Shown here: positions 30,164 to 36,635 of the stretch, piece by piece
Layout: every line of letters starts with the position of its first letter
How positions within the stretch are numbered: the stretch's first letter is position 1
NCBI GenBank assembly: GCA_024277115.1
Contig: JAJRVW010000119.1
Span: 1-64,000, forward strand
Length of the DNA: 64,000 nt
Source of the DNA: Calditrichota bacterium
GTDB taxonomy: Bacteria > Calditrichota > Calditrichia > Calditrichales > J004
Direction of reading: 5' to 3'
Position numbers and translations under genes: made by a program
The notes under the pieces: model-generated
Database searches by the model: none
The model's input: only the letters and a program-made list of their open reading frames with translations
What the model was told of the DNA's origin: nothing

Positions 30164-31390
30164 ATGTTAAAAGATAATTTACAAATTGCACTGGCTCAAT
30201 TGACATCGGGCAAACTGCGCTCTTTATTGACCGTCTTGGGCATTACCATCGGCATTGCCACGGTTATTGCCATTGTTGCCGTCCTCGAAGGCTATTTTGC
30301 GTCGCTTTCAGCTGATTTAAATATGTTGGGCGCTAACACTTTTCAGGTACAAAAATGGGATGCTTTCGGCGGGATTCAGGTTGGCGCAGGGGATAAACAA
30401 TATCGGAAAAATTTGCAACCGGAACTGGCCGAAGTCGTGCGCGAGGAGTGTGACCTTGTTCTTAATGCCGGCGCTGAAATATGGAAAGGCGGCCAGGTTA
30501 TACAATATAGTGATAAGAAGACAAACCCTAATATCAGCGTAGCAGGCGGCGAGCCGGAGTTTTTTCCCAATAACGGCTATTTTATAACCGAAGGCCGGGC
30601 CATTACCCGTGAAGATGTTGCCAGTCGACGAAAGAATGTTGTTTTGGGCATGGACACTGTAGAAAAGCTTTTTCCTTTTGAAGACCCTGTTGGCAAGTTT
30701 GTAAAAATAAAAGGGCTAAAATTTAAAGTTGTGGGGTTTATCGAGGAACTGGGCGAACAAGCGTTGGGAGGGAGTAAAGACAATATTGTTGTGATTCCAT
30801 TATCAACTTTTGTTGGGATTTTTGGAAGGGAACGATCGGCCAATATAACAATTAGCGTTAAAGATGTAGACCTCTTTGAGGAAGCTAAGGATCAGGTAAT
30901 CGGGGTTATCCGCCGTGAACGAAAAGTACCGCCGGGCGCGGATAATGATTTCGCCATTTTTTCCAATGATTCACTTGTAGATACTTTTCGTGGTATTGCC
31001 AATCAGGTTCAGATTGCCGCAATGTTCTTGGGGTTGATTTCACTTTTGGTAGGCAGTATTGGCGTGATGAACATTATGCTGGTCACGGTCACCGAACGAA
31101 CTCGCGAAATTGGTATCCGCAAGGCTGTGGGTGCCAGGCGCAGTACAATTATGGCCCAGTTTTTAAATGAATCGATTCTGCTTAGTTTGGTTGGCGGTGT
31201 ATTGGGCATGGCGCTGGGATTTGGTTTGGCCTTTGTTGCAAATATGTACCTCGATATTCCTTTTGTTATTCCCGTATGGATTGTTATTGCCGCAGTGTTT
31301 ATAACGAGTATTGTTGGCCTGGGCGCGGGCCTTTACCCGGCCGCAAAAGCTGCGAAGATGGACCCGATTATTGCTTTAGGGCATGAGTAA
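30164..31390 (+). CDS. MacB/FtsX-type ABC transporter permease, second copy
   Basis: 408 residues with the same layout as the 28374 gene: N-terminal segment SGKLRSLLTVLGITIGIATVIAIVAV, periplasmic MacB_PCD domain, then FtsX segments with VGSIGVMNIMLVTVTERTREIGIRKAVGARRSTIMAQFL. It ends MDPIIALGHE. It is clearly a paralogue of the first permease. The gap between the two is filled by the S23 relic, so the insertion separated them and may have cut the transcript. Substrate not predictable; lipoprotein release and macrolide/peptide export are the known roles of related systems. Confidence 0.92.
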   Translation: MLKDNLQIALAQLTSGKLRSLLTVLGITIGIATVIAIVAVLEGYFASLSADLNMLGANTFQVQKWDAFGGIQVGAGDKQYRKNLQPELAEVVREECDLVLNAGAEIWKGGQVIQYSDKKTNPNISVAGGEPEFFPNNGYFITEGRAITREDVASRRKNVVLGMDTVEKLFPFEDPVGKFVKIKGLKFKVVGFIEELGEQALGGSKDNIVVIPLSTFVGIFGRERSANITISVKDVDLFEEAKDQVIGVIRRERKVPPGADNDFAIFSNDSLVDTFRGIANQVQIAAMFLGLISLLVGSIGVMNIMLVTVTERTREIGIRKAVGARRSTIMAQFLNESILLSLVGGVLGMALGFGLAFVANMYLDIPFVIPVWIVIAAVFITSIVGLGAGLYPAAKAAKMDPIIALGHE

Positions 31391-31446: not shown

Positions 31447-32817
31447 TTAAACTTTTGACTTACCGATTAAAAACCCCACAAATAAAAATAGACTCACAAT
31501 CAACCCCGGAATAAATGGTTCCAACCCAAAGGGATATAGATTGTTATTTAAGGTTCCTATTAAAAACCAGGCCAGGCTTGTTGTAAATCCTGAGATCATT
31601 AAAACAACAATATTATTGCCGGGCAGCTTTATTTTTGGATAAAGCGCGCTAACCACCGGGATAAGCAGTGGGGGGATAAACAAACTGCCCAGTGTGTACC
31701 ACAAAGAAACCACCGATGGGAAAATCCAAATGAGCCCCAATGCAACAATCGCCGTAAGGCCAAGCCCAATTTGCGTGTAATGCTCAATTTCAGGGTCACT
31801 GTTCTTTTTATTCCAATAGGCGATTATATCCCGGCCAAATGTTTGTGCCGAAAGGAACGAAAAACTATCGATGGTGGACATGGCTGTGGCCAATAATGCA
31901 ATGATAAAAATACCTTTTAAAATGGGCGGCAATACCTGCTCTGCGATGAGCGGGTAAATCATCAATGGGTCGATATTGGGTAAAAGGGCGGCGGCGTAAA
32001 TACCTGTCCACAGCGTGAGCATATCAAAAACGAACCAAAATAAAACCGAAACCAGGATGGCTTTTTTTGCCGTGGCTGGGTTTTTGGCTGCTGCCGTGCG
32101 CTGATGAAAACCGGGATCGATAAAGGTCCAGCTGGCAATAAGAAACCAGACTAATATATTTTGGAAAGACATCCCACCGTTAAAACTTTGCTGTGATAGG
32201 CTGAGTTGTTCAAGCTGATTTAACGGGTTGCCATATTCAACCACTAAAAAAATAAACAATAAAATAAACCCGCCAAACATAAGCAGAAATTGAAACTTGT
32301 CTGTTTGAACAACCGAATTGAAGCCTCCTTTAAAAACATAAATTATTGAAAACAGGGTTGCGGCAATCACAGAATAAAATAGTGGAATATGCAGCAAATA
32401 ACTGATTAAAATACCGGTTATTAAAATATAGGGAGCCGGGGAGGTAATAAATAAAATAAAAAAGCTGCCAATTAAACCGGCAAGTGGGCCATAGTTTTTA
32501 TAGAGTAAATCGGGGATTGAAATATATTTTGCCCGGCGTATCTTGGGCGCAACAAACAGCGCGAAGAGAATTGCAAAAAAGTAGTAAGGAATGCCAAAAA
32601 CCACCCAAGCCGAGATGCCCTGTGTGTAAATGAATTCGCCTACGCCTAAAATGCCACCGTACCAAGTTGTAACCAGCGTAGCGACCAATGCGGGCAAACT
32701 TAATGAACGGCTGCTTAATAGATACGCTTCTTGTGTCGGGTTCTTTTGGCGGGCTTTCCAGCCAAGAAGCAGCAAAATAAAAATATAAATTGAAAAAATG
32801 GAAATATCTAAAAACAT
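31447..32817 (-). CDS. Sodium:solute symporter (SSS family), candidate thiamin transporter
   Basis: 456 residues with about 12-13 membrane segments. Family features: N-terminal ARQKNPTQEAYLLSSRSL, ATLVTTWYGGILGVGEF, and IALLATAMSTIDSFSFLSAQTFGRDI, the Na-binding helix. It is the third gene behind a TPP riboswitch, 130 bases after thiamin pyrophosphokinase on the same strand. An SSS-type thiamin/precursor transporter (ThiV) has been proposed in other lineages from riboswitch context; the same role is inferred here. Without that context only Na+/solute symport could be claimed. Confidence 0.88.
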   Translation of the reverse strand: MFLDISIFSIYIFILLLLGWKARQKNPTQEAYLLSSRSLSLPALVATLVTTWYGGILGVGEFIYTQGISAWVVFGIPYYFFAILFALFVAPKIRRAKYISIPDLLYKNYGPLAGLIGSFFILFITSPAPYILITGILISYLLHIPLFYSVIAATLFSIIYVFKGGFNSVVQTDKFQFLLMFGGFILLFIFLVVEYGNPLNQLEQLSLSQQSFNGGMSFQNILVWFLIASWTFIDPGFHQRTAAAKNPATAKKAILVSVLFWFVFDMLTLWTGIYAAALLPNIDPLMIYPLIAEQVLPPILKGIFIIALLATAMSTIDSFSFLSAQTFGRDIIAYWNKKNSDPEIEHYTQIGLGLTAIVALGLIWIFPSVVSLWYTLGSLFIPPLLIPVVSALYPKIKLPGNNIVVLMISGFTTSLAWFLIGTLNNNLYPFGLEPFIPGLIVSLFLFVGFLIGKSKV

Positions 32818-32947
32818 GAGGATAGCAGAATTATTGGATTAATGATTTGTATGATTAAAGACATGGTGCGATGAGTTTTTGTCATCGCTTGTTACGCAAT
32901 ATACAGTTTATGAAACATTAATTCAGTAATTCATAATTTCACACTTC

Positions 32948-33571
32948 TTATTGATTCAGCTCGTAAACCAATAGCTTGCCTTTTTCAAAACTTATAGAGG
33001 CGCTGTCTTTTGCTATCATATTACTTACACCTAAAAATGGTGTTGCCAGTTTCTCTCTGTTTACAGGGAACTCAAAACCATCTAACTGGATATCTAAGAG
33101 TTCTGAAAGGGCAAAAAGGGAAATGGTCTGGCCTTTCTTATTTGAAAACTTTTCTATTCCTGGCATCAGTATCGAAAAAGTACCAAAATGGTCGTGCATA
33201 ATAAGTTTTGGTCGTGCCGAATAATTGTTTAAAATAAAAACATTTCCCAGGCTATGGTCGGTCCGTTTTCCAAAAGAAGCAAAAACTTCAATCACTTCGG
33301 GGTTTAACGAAGCTGCATAAGCCAGGGCTTTTTGCATGTCGGTTGTATTTTGATCGGGAATCCTTAAAAGTTTTGTACTTTGTGATATGCCAACCGGAAG
33401 TGAGTCGAACGAATCCATGTCCCCAATCAGGCAATCGGGCGTTACATCATTGTCCAGGCACCAGCAAATTCCGCCATCAGCGGCAATAATATAGTCATAC
33501 TGTGTTTTTATGGTTTTTAATTGGTCAGGTGTAGGTGGTTCGCCATTGGCGATGATCACAATCTTTTTCAA
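32948..33571 (-). CDS. thiN: Thiamin pyrophosphokinase
   Basis: 207 residues. The N-terminal catalytic domain has IIANGEPP, IIAADGGICWCLDNDVTPDCLIGDMDSF and PDQNTTDMQKAL, the ATP and thiamin binding motifs. GKRTDHSLGNVFIL follows, and then a beta-rich C-terminal thiamin-binding domain (about 140-205). It makes TPP directly from thiamin with ATP, so it is a salvage enzyme. It follows the TonB receptor by 118 bases under the same TPP riboswitch. Confidence 0.93.
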   Translation of the reverse strand: MKKIVIIANGEPPTPDQLKTIKTQYDYIIAADGGICWCLDNDVTPDCLIGDMDSFDSLPVGISQSTKLLRIPDQNTTDMQKALAYAASLNPEVIEVFASFGKRTDHSLGNVFILNNYSARPKLIMHDHFGTFSILMPGIEKFSNKKGQTISLFALSELLDIQLDGFEFPVNREKLATPFLGVSNMIAKDSASISFEKGKLLVYELNQ

Positions 33572-33689
33572 TTTTCCCCCCTCAGAGAATTGTAAGAAAG
33601 CTGATTATTAGAGTAATTTCAGTATTCGGATAATTTAGTCTTTATGTAAACATGTTTTAATTGCCCCGTTGTGATAATTGTCCCACCTT

Positions 33690-36224
33690 TTACAGCATTA
33701 ATTGCAGACCTGCATATATATTTCTGCCTGCTGCCGGCCAATAATAATTTTGGTTGGACCAGGGATCGTAATATCCGGCAGTCTCATACTCTGCATCCAG
33801 TAGGTTATTAATTTTTAAGATTATCCTTACATCCGGCATATCATTATTTGTAATAATTTTATAAGATGAAAACAGCCCCATGGTGGTAAAGCTGTTTATA
33901 ATACGGGATTCATTTTCGGTGTTATCAAGATATTGTTTACCAATATGCTGAACCGAAAGTGAGGTAAAAAGCGTCCCATAATTTGCTGTAAACTTGAGGT
34001 TGGCGATTATAGATGGAAAGCTGGAAATGTTATTGCCGCTTAAATCCACTTCATCGACCTTGCCGGTGCTCCAGTTATATTGCTTCTCAATAAATTTTTT
34101 AAAGAAGTTTTGGCTGTAGGCAAAATTACCGCTCACCTGAAAATGGTTGCCCAGCTTTGATGTGGCCGTTAATTCTATCCCACGGTGGATGGTACTTTCC
34201 GCATTGCCTTTTATGGGCGAGCCATCTTTATCCAGGCCACCGGATGCAATTATTTCATTACGAAAATCCATCCAATATAAATTGACCGACGCGTTGATAA
34301 ATGTGTTGGTATAATTTATCCCCAGTTCAAAATCGACTAGTTCTTCCGGTTTTACATAAGGGTTTTTCCAATCAACGCCTGTAATTTTACCATTGCTGCG
34401 CAGTGTATCACTTTGGGCAAACAACGGCGCCACGCCAATATCATCAGGGCCGGTGAAGGTGTTGTATAAGTCATCATCCGATGGCTCACGCAGGGCACCT
34501 GATAGGTTGGAGTACAAGCTGAGATTTTTGTTGACTGTATAATTGATGCCCATGCGTGGGCTGAGAAAACTATAATCAATATTATAGCTGTTGATTTTGT
34601 CCCCGTTAAATAAAGCGGTTTCATTTTGCTTAAATCCGGCTGTTTTATATTCGTACAACAAATTGCTTAAAATATTTATATCGCTAGTATATTTATATAA
34701 ATAATTTACAAAGGCAGAAAGTGATTTTTTATCTCCGTTATAATTATAATATTCGCGTTCAGGGCTGTATTGGCTTGGCAGGTTTTTGGCCCAAACCACT
34801 TTACCGTAGTGCTCGGAATTAAAAAGATAGCCTGAAAGCCCAATGGTCATTTTACCTTCATCACTTTCAAAATTGGCCTTGCTGATAAAGCCCAGTTGTG
34901 TTTTATCGACCCATTTTTGGCGGACAAGGTCTGTCCGTTTTACAGAATATTGATTTCCACTTCGGATCAAAGTATCGGCATCAGAAAGATAATAATCCAG
35001 CGAATCGGTGCCAAAAAGCGAGGGGTCGGATGTTTGAAAAGTGGACATGCCGAAGTCGGATAATTTTTTACCCGTTTTTAAATTTTCATAATAACCCAGC
35101 CCTTTAATCATATAAACAGAGTTTGAAAGTTGCAGGCGGTCGGAAATATCCCATTCGTTTATTAACTGATAATGCTGCTGATGAAAATTATCAACACTAT
35201 TATTATAAGTCTCCTTTTTATAAGTGCGGTCTTTGGCGAGGATGTTTTGCGGGATGCCATCCCAATCCGGCTTAGTCAGTTCAGGGCCACCAAACAAGTT
35301 TAATTTGGTGACCATGTTGTCATCATAGCGTGCGGCATTAAAATAATAGGACCACAATTTACTTTCGGAGTTCTTACGGAAGCCGGTGCTCGATAATTGA
35401 GAATAACGCCCGTAGAAACTGTATTTCCCGGCAACCAGCCCTGAGTTGAAAGCGCTGGAAAATTTACGTGTATTAAAGGAACCCCCGCCATACTGAATAG
35501 TTAGTTTGGATTCCCCCGGTGTTGGCGAGGTGTTTATATTTATCGATCCGCCAAAAGTGGAGGTGCCATAAACCGAGCTGCCAATGCCACGTTGCACTTG
35601 TATGTCTTCAATATTCTCTGCGAGGTCGGGCATATCCACCCAATACACCTGCTGGTCTTCGGGGTCATTTAACGGAATATCGTTGATCATTACACCCACA
35701 CGTTTCTGGTCAAATCCACGGATTTTTACAAAGGAGTAACCGATCTCGTCGCCGGTTAGCGAATAAACATACATGTTGGGCATATCGTTGAGTAACATTG
35801 GCACATCACTGGCCGCGTAGCTGTTTTTTATTTCTTCTGCCGATTTGTTGCTAAAGGTTACCGGGGTCTCATGACGCGTTGCGCGGGTATCTGTAATAAC
35901 AATAGGCTGGCTTTCCATCACATAAGGTTTTAGCCGGAAGAGAATAGTGTTCGGGGCATTAGAAAAGTTAAAAATTTTAGACTGGGGTAAATAGGCCACG
36001 TGTGTTGCCAAAAGTGTTACAGATGTGGTGGGTTCAATTTTTAGCGAGAAAGCTCCTTCACCGTTGGTTGTTGTGCCAGCGCCGTTTTCTTTGATTTTAA
36101 TCTCGGCATTGACGATAGGTTTACCGGTTTCAACAGAAAGGACGCGGCCCTTAATTACTTGTGTCTGGGCGGAGAGAGAAGAAAGAAAAAGGAACAAAGA
36201 AAAAAGGAAAAAATGATGACGCAT
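33690..36224 (-). CDS. TonB-dependent receptor, predicted thiamin uptake
   Basis: 844 residues. Signal peptide 1-19 (LSSLSAQ), a carboxypeptidase-regulatory-like domain (about 22-105, VIKGRVLSVETGKPIVNAEIKI), a plug domain (about 120-230, PMLLNDMPNMYVYSLTGDEIGYSFVKIRGFDQKRVGVMINDIPLNDPE) and a 22-strand barrel ending AGRNIYAGLQLML with an aromatic-hydrophobic C-terminus. It lies directly downstream of a TPP riboswitch and terminator and upstream of thiN, matching the omr1-type receptors of thiamin salvage loci in Bacteroidota. The thiamin substrate is inferred from that context. Confidence 0.9.
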   Translation of the reverse strand: MRHHFFLFSLFLFLSSLSAQTQVIKGRVLSVETGKPIVNAEIKIKENGAGTTTNGEGAFSLKIEPTTSVTLLATHVAYLPQSKIFNFSNAPNTILFRLKPYVMESQPIVITDTRATRHETPVTFSNKSAEEIKNSYAASDVPMLLNDMPNMYVYSLTGDEIGYSFVKIRGFDQKRVGVMINDIPLNDPEDQQVYWVDMPDLAENIEDIQVQRGIGSSVYGTSTFGGSININTSPTPGESKLTIQYGGGSFNTRKFSSAFNSGLVAGKYSFYGRYSQLSSTGFRKNSESKLWSYYFNAARYDDNMVTKLNLFGGPELTKPDWDGIPQNILAKDRTYKKETYNNSVDNFHQQHYQLINEWDISDRLQLSNSVYMIKGLGYYENLKTGKKLSDFGMSTFQTSDPSLFGTDSLDYYLSDADTLIRSGNQYSVKRTDLVRQKWVDKTQLGFISKANFESDEGKMTIGLSGYLFNSEHYGKVVWAKNLPSQYSPEREYYNYNGDKKSLSAFVNYLYKYTSDINILSNLLYEYKTAGFKQNETALFNGDKINSYNIDYSFLSPRMGINYTVNKNLSLYSNLSGALREPSDDDLYNTFTGPDDIGVAPLFAQSDTLRSNGKITGVDWKNPYVKPEELVDFELGINYTNTFINASVNLYWMDFRNEIIASGGLDKDGSPIKGNAESTIHRGIELTATSKLGNHFQVSGNFAYSQNFFKKFIEKQYNWSTGKVDEVDLSGNNISSFPSIIANLKFTANYGTLFTSLSVQHIGKQYLDNTENESRIINSFTTMGLFSSYKIITNNDMPDVRIILKINNLLDAEYETAGYYDPWSNQNYYWPAAGRNIYAGLQLML

Positions 36225-36354
36225 ATAAAAAAATCTCCAAAAAATGTACAGCTATTGATACGGTTATCTCGTTTGTGATTAGGTTTGATCAACCTGTGAA
36301 CCAAAGTTTACCGACCCGACTTGAGCAGAGTGACAAAGTAAACTATGTCATTCC

Positions 36355-36396
36355 GAGGCACGAAGCATCCCCCTCATCTGACTATTCTCGTGCCTC
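36355..36396. repeat. Hairpin repeat in the leader of the thiamin operon
   Basis: GAGGCACGA and TCGTGCCTC face each other around 24 bases, within a TCATTCCGAGGCACGAAGCATCC sequence of the kind I recall dispersed between genes in FCB genomes. It lies between the riboswitch terminator and the TonB receptor start, inside the transcribed leader. Confidence 0.5.
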
Positions 36397-36445
36397 TCAT
36401 AACGACAAAACAACACATCTTTACTGTTGCATAAACAGGTTAAAA

Positions 36446-36476
36446 CAAAAAAAGTCTGCCGGGGGATGGCAGACTT
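36446..36476 (-). terminator. Terminator of the TPP riboswitch expression platform
   Basis: On the minus strand AAGTCTGCC-ATCCCCC-GGCAGACTT followed by a U tract, a perfect 9-bp stem about 12 bases after the aptamer. TPP binding is expected to favour termination before the receptor gene. Confidence 0.85.
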
Positions 36477-36487
36477 TATAGTTCTTA

Positions 36488-36572
36488 ATGCTTCCTACGC
36501 CGGTATAAACCGGTTCAGGTTCAAAGGGTCTGCTCTCAGTCCCACTACTGGCGGGACACCCCTGCGTATGTT
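36488..36572 (-). promoter_or_regulatory. TPP riboswitch (THI element)
   Basis: On the minus strand: CAGGGGTGTCCCGC, GGGACTGAGAG, ACCCTTTGAACCTGA, then CCGGTTTATACCGGCGTAGGAAGC. These are the conserved blocks of the TPP aptamer (GGGGUG, CUGAGA, ACCC..GAACCUGA, GCGUAGG). It controls the TonB receptor, thiN and SSS symporter genes downstream through the adjacent terminator. Confidence 0.95.
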
Positions 36573-36635
36573 TTCAAGTGGCTAATCTACAAAATTCATT
36601 TTGGCAAAACAAAGAAAAGTTGAGAACAATTCCCC

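Follow-up and report, generated by a model that had tools for sequence, protein, structure and literature searches.

A predicted thiamin scavenging operon with a sodium:solute symporter in the place of PnuT in a Calditrichota bacterium

The genome of a Calditrichota bacterium that is predicted to be auxotrophic for thiamin (vitamin B1) contains what is very probably an operon for scavenging this vitamin, in which a TonB-dependent receptor (TBDR) and a sodium:solute symporter (SSS) would import thiamin and a thiamin pyrophosphokinase (TPK) would make thiamin pyrophosphate (TPP) from it. The window, that is, the whole stretch of DNA analysed here (64,000 nucleotides), comes from one contig of an assembly of 4.97 Mb in 255 contigs, with a completeness of 95.6%. 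A sequence-only reading of the window had described a thiamin operon consisting of a TPP riboswitch, a terminator and genes for a TBDR, a TPK and an SSS, and every one of these parts is indeed present, as follows:

36475-36573, minus strand: TPP riboswitch aptamer, RF00059 (cmscan, 71.7 bits, E=4e-12)
36528-36533, minus strand: GCAGAC segment inside the aptamer, complementary to 36474-36469, the proposed antiterminator arm
36451-36477, minus strand: intrinsic (rho-independent) terminator, AAAGTCTGCC-loop-GGCAGACTTT followed by a T run
33690-36224, minus strand: TBDR, 844 aa, predicted outer-membrane thiamin receptor (Pfam PF00593, PF07715, PF13715)
32948-33571, minus strand: TPK, 207 aa, with a TTG start (PF04263, PF04265, TIGR01378)
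31447-32817, minus strand: SSS, 456 aa, predicted inner-membrane thiamin importer (PF00474)

The order of transcription on the minus strand is thus riboswitch, terminator, TBDR, TPK and SSS; an oppositely directed permease gene ends at 31390, facing the end of the symporter gene, and the operon therefore ends there. The receptor combines the TonB plug and barrel domains with a CarbopepD_reg_2 domain. The kinase, whose TTG start is preceded by a GAGGGGGG stretch, contains the TPK_catalytic and TPK_B1_binding domains and passes the cut-off of the NCBIfam equivalog thi_PPkinase TIGR01378 (131.8 bits against 76.4), and the symporter matches the Pfam SSF profile PF00474 with 81.1 bits, against a gathering score of 22.8, and an E-value of 1e-22. 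With 118 and 130 nt between the genes, the spacing exceeds that of most relatives, and the operon may contain an internal promoter. A search for signs of symporter transcription independent of the riboswitch found no intrinsic terminator-like site between the genes, and promoter-like matches at about background level; the predicted link of symporter transcription to the riboswitch is further supported by the gene order, with the TPP riboswitch followed by TBDR, TPK and SSS, which is kept across Calditrichota.

From this layout, we infer thiamin as the cargo of both receptor and symporter, the Na+ coupling, the mode of switching and the co-transcription of the three genes. The receptor would bring thiamin across the outer membrane, the symporter would carry it across the inner membrane in a Na+-coupled manner, and the kinase would convert it to TPP. 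When plentiful, TPP would bind the nascent leader RNA, with the aptamer then keeping GCAGAC (36533-36528) off the 5' arm of the terminator, so that the terminator would form and the three genes would be shut off; when TPP is scarce, antiterminator pairing would allow transcription to read through.

The leader has the elements that such a switch would need. The aptamer is full-length (model positions 1-105), scores well above the gathering score of 54.3 bits, and is the only TPP riboswitch recovered by a whole-genome covariance search, located at the head of the operon. It is followed by a terminator with a 10-bp stem and a T run, and aptamer and terminator together fold more stably than shuffled sequences (z = -3.5); terminators directly 3' of the aptamer are also present in six of 10 relatives examined. 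In the usual transcription-termination arrangement, the TPP-bound aptamer corresponds to the terminator being on, and the state without TPP to an antiterminator. An antiterminator is plausible in this leader, given that, for a transcript ended at the terminator loop, the most stable predicted fold (minimum free energy -33.5 kcal/mol) includes the pairing of GCAGAC with the 5' arm (36474-36469). The pairing is offered as a proposal because a six-base complement could arise by chance within about 95 bases perhaps once in 10 cases, by our own estimate. The remainder of the leader, from the terminator to the receptor start (36225-36450, about 226 nt), contains two more inverted repeats, at 36302-36347 and 36355-36396; a dispersed repeat suspected at 36347-36396 was rejected, the motif being single-copy in the window and the fetched loci.

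Family searches of the 95.6% complete assembly, in which absences are not absolute, produced no match for the PnuC/PnuT family (PF04973), ThiT, the ThiB-type ABC binding protein family, ThiC or ThiE, whereas the same searches gave matches in control genomes. Accordingly, the sequence-only observation that the window lacks thiamin synthesis genes extends to the whole genome for ThiC and ThiE, and the search that it had suggested, for thiC and for a PnuT or ThiT gene under its own TPP riboswitch, yielded neither such a gene nor a second TPP riboswitch. Because of the missing ThiC and ThiE matches and the single riboswitch, the host is predicted to need ready-made thiamin and is apparently unable to make vitamin B1. 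Across the phylum, ThiC is found in none of the 40 Calditrichota genomes, and a PnuC-family gene in only one (G007), where it adjoins a NadR-like gene; we rejected this protein as a PnuT for that reason, and it is probably a transporter of NMN or nicotinamide riboside.

The proposal that an SSS takes the inner-membrane place of PnuT thus gains support from the lack of PnuC/PnuT and ThiT matches in the host genome, with the cargo assigned from context. The comparison through which it was originally framed, with PnuT as the typical choice of Bacteroidota, is reasonable for gut species, where OMthi and pnuT occur together in 91 of 114 genomes (PMC5613172), but is the wrong yardstick for this host, which belongs to Calditrichota, not Bacteroidota: the nearest relatives of its symporter are that of a genome from the same genus (G020, 79% identity), followed by named Calditrichia and Calditrichaeota records, and this list of kin places the genome in Calditrichota. 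The Bacteroides OMthi-PnuT-Tnr3 system nevertheless offers a close analogy, with a TPP riboswitch, a TonB-dependent outer-membrane thiamin receptor, an inner-membrane transporter and a TPP-forming enzyme that share one operon in most genomes, and with the difference that its inner-membrane step is PnuT, of the PnuC family, of which no gene was found in our host (PMC5613172). The receptor of our host, a TonB receptor by its Pfam domains, is a candidate for the thiamin-specific type represented by OMthi/BT2390.

The arrangement is sound but mostly known. In Caldithrix abyssi, a different species of the same phylum, the same gene set is found at Cabys_3975-3977, with a TPP riboswitch 163 nt upstream of the TBDR gene and with a sodium-solute symporter and a TPK; in the part of the 2017 report that concerns this locus, the authors predict thiamin transport for these genes as well as thiamin auxotrophy (PMC5317091). 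There, the receptor is named as the thiamin transporter, and the symporter is not considered as a step equivalent to PnuT (PMC5317091). The present analysis adds to this that PnuT-type and ThiC genes are absent across the phylum, that the link to TPK is nearly constant from phylum to phylum, and that the lack of ThiE speaks for thiamin over its pyrimidine precursor HMP as the cargo; it also provides a comparison of residues with the choline transporter CHT1.

The association of symporter and kinase holds over a broad range of genomes. The symporter ortholog is present in exactly one copy in 30 of the 40 Calditrichota genomes; by our own reading of the symporter and riboswitch match lists, 28 of these 30 possess a TPP riboswitch, which in 23 lies 3-5 kb upstream of the symporter on the same contig. 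Among the 18 loci fetched from other genomes of Calditrichota, Bacteroidota/Ignavibacteriota and Marinimicrobia, TPK adjoins the SSS in 17, and a TBDR and a TPP riboswitch precede the TPK-SSS pair in 10, all from Calditrichota and Bacteroidota/Ignavibacteriota-labelled records. The Marinimicrobia-type loci (L006-L012) keep the pair, with no TPP riboswitch match and no such receptor nearby, and another gene precedes TPK wherever the contig reaches far enough and was read. In one Calditrichota genome (G034), the symporter is on a different contig from the riboswitch-TBDR-TPK block (L074, L075), and riboswitch control of the symporter is therefore not universal. In the phylogenetic tree, the orthologous symporters cluster together with good support, and the eight paralogs of the host genome that were tested, PanF and PutP fall outside this cluster, whose deeper placement is unsure because of long branches. 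The symporter was also considered, and rejected, as a PanF or PutP, scoring below the cut-offs of both models, and as a PnuT, its domain being PF00474 rather than PF04973.

The assignment of the symporter to the SSS family is borne out by the PF00474 profile, by Foldseek matches of the AlphaFold2 model (pLDDT 89.5) to the LeuT-type folds of CHT1, SGLT and SiaT, the best of them to the choline transporter CHT (TM 0.84), and by the sodium-site residues kept in alignment with CHT1, namely, S314 and T315 of Na2 and D173, D317 and S318 of Na3. The sequence-profile matches point the same way, to bacterial CHT (1.5e-28) and human CHT1 (9e-23). In CHT1, the quaternary nitrogen of choline is caged by W62, Y91, W141 and W254, and the substrate is further surrounded by Y67 and W406 (PMC11589582). 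In an alignment at about 20% identity, in which the placement of TM3 and TM6 is the least certain, W62, Y91 and W406 correspond to W52, Y78 and W373 of the symporter. W52 and W373 are invariant among the orthologs whose sequences reach these positions, and a single ortholog lacks Y78. W254 aligns with an invariant aspartate, D234, and W141 with a variable serine, S126, such that the five-aromatic choline site is incomplete here, subject to the same uncertainty over TM3 and TM6. Thiamin is a thiazolium cation, for which a Na+-coupled carrier whose site is partly aromatic and acidic would be suitable. CHT1 and sfCHT therefore resemble the symporter in being its best profile and fold match and in the aligned aromatics, both sodium sites and a substrate with a quaternary nitrogen, and differ in the low identity, the two substitutions and a substrate, choline, that is not a B1 compound (PMC11589582, PMC13220886).

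Intact thiamin, rather than HMP, is the likeliest cargo of the symporter, because HMP brought into a cell that lacks ThiE would serve no purpose; moreover, because TPK acts on ready-made thiamin, a co-operonic transporter would most simply bring thiamin. That the symporter is instead an importer of the ThiV type, for HMP or an aminopyrimidine breakdown product rather than intact thiamin, appears unlikely. This possibility draws on ThiV of SAR11, the best studied bacterial SSS of such physiology, which is controlled by a TPP riboswitch, probably accounts for the HMP uptake whose kinetics were measured in whole cells, and is assigned to HMP rather than thiamin (PMC11452348); in addition, in one relative (G014), the symporter operon directly follows a TPP-led cluster of thiM-thiE-thiL-thiD-tenA, and precursors could be used there. 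In the host, by contrast, there is no ThiE-family match, and HMP could not be joined to thiazole without ThiE; in the phylum, ThiE exceeds the cut-off in three of the 40 members, against 30 that encode the symporter, and the partner enzyme TPK acts on thiamin itself. SSS proteins under TPP riboswitches also include SSSP and SSSQ of algae and bacteria (PMC4260697). ThiV of SAR11 and the SSSP of marine bacteria and algae share with our symporter the PF00474 domain, the riboswitch and, as predicted here, B1-related uptake (PMC11452348, PMC4260697). Of the residues noted for ThiV/SSSP, the TM2 tyrosine (SiaT position 78) may be matched by Y78, via the alignment with CHT1 Y91, and D139 in TM3 (SiaT position 139), part of the published D139/F254 signature, appears to be absent, the TM3 motif in the symporter's own sequence being PAPYIL with no Asp near. 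These proteins differ further in a cargo given as HMP or HMP/thiamin and in partner genes that are often biosynthetic. A thiamin-transporting SSS has a genetic precedent in fungi, where deletion of Dur31/NCU01977, a family member under a TPP riboswitch, confers resistance to pyrithiamine, although this protein is eukaryotic, belongs to another subfamily (SSSQ) and is controlled by a splicing-type riboswitch (PMC5997356).

It is very unlikely that the symporter moves an unrelated solute, such as choline, proline or pantothenate, and merely adjoins TPK. Sequence is a poor guide to the substrates of SSS proteins, the PanF and PutP models do match the protein below their cut-offs, and choline is the substrate of the solved transporter nearest to it in sequence and fold; yet the adjacency to TPK in nearly all loci across phyla, the single copy and riboswitch association in Calditrichota, and a clade separate from PanF and PutP all argue against this, as do the two cage residues of CHT1 that are not kept (W141 to S126, W254 to D234). 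We consider it similarly improbable that thiamin phosphates or TPP are taken up, with dephosphorylation in the periplasm and the symporter as one of several inner-membrane routes: none of the other recognised importer families searched for (PnuC/PnuT, ThiT, ThiB) was found, and a cell that took in TPP unchanged would have no need of TPK.

Extending the reading of the symporter as a carrier of intact thiamin beyond this operon, we propose, with moderate confidence, that the orthologs constitute a distinct, single-copy SSS subfamily of FCB bacteria dedicated to intact thiamin, with a CHT-like aromatic site in which the invariant Asp would hold the thiamin cation, and that this subfamily would be the standard replacement for PnuT across Calditrichota, Ignavibacteria-type Bacteroidota and Marinimicrobia. 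Microbial communities are shaped by the exchange of thiamin, for which the inner-membrane importer often goes unannotated. Should the cargo be confirmed, members of the clade could be annotated as thiamin importers in numerous genomes of uncultured FCB bacteria, which could then be called thiamin rather than HMP auxotrophs, and ThiV, for HMP, would be joined by a bacterial sodium symporter with specificity for the complete vitamin; beyond this, the arrangement is ordinary.

Several additional observations accompany these findings. Six plasmid records with relatives of the SSS that we inspected have no thiamin context, and the plasmid proteins fall outside the clade in the tree; the one from Clostridioides difficile (L030:3866-5260) has the WYGG, E61 and DP-F residues as in the clade, without Y78 and W373, and with no riboswitch or thiamin genes nearby. 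The receptor seems to have had a history of its own. Against the same-genus genome G020, identity is 79% for the symporter, 63% for TPK and 32% for the receptor, whereas the window receptor is 54% and 48% identical to those of the more distant L005 and L004, and the receptor tree groups that of the window with those of L004, L005 and G036 (the loci concerned, besides the window, are L079:6055-8520, L004, L005 and L076); this suggests a history different from that of its operon partners, with the receptor replaced in place. In G014, a genome without ThiC, the TBDR-TPK-SSS operon directly follows the second TPP-led cluster (L073, C156:1-12000), so that two TPP riboswitches stand back to back.

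In one genus without the symporter (G039 and G038; similarly G037, L068), a TPP riboswitch leads a gene for an AIR-synthase-related protein (L067:3409-4533, L077:1288-2367), which in G039 is closest to HypE/ThiL, below their cut-offs, and in G038 is followed by thiE. In the Marinimicrobia-type loci, a conserved protein of about 305 aa is encoded directly upstream of TPK-SSS (L006:6438-7355, L008:3740-4657, L010:6419-7336, L011:6447-7370, L012:6377-7297). Pfam gave no match for two members, nor did NCBIfam for one; the low-confidence structural model (pLDDT 66) gives weak matches (E at least 0.005), mostly to acetyltransferases and FeeM.
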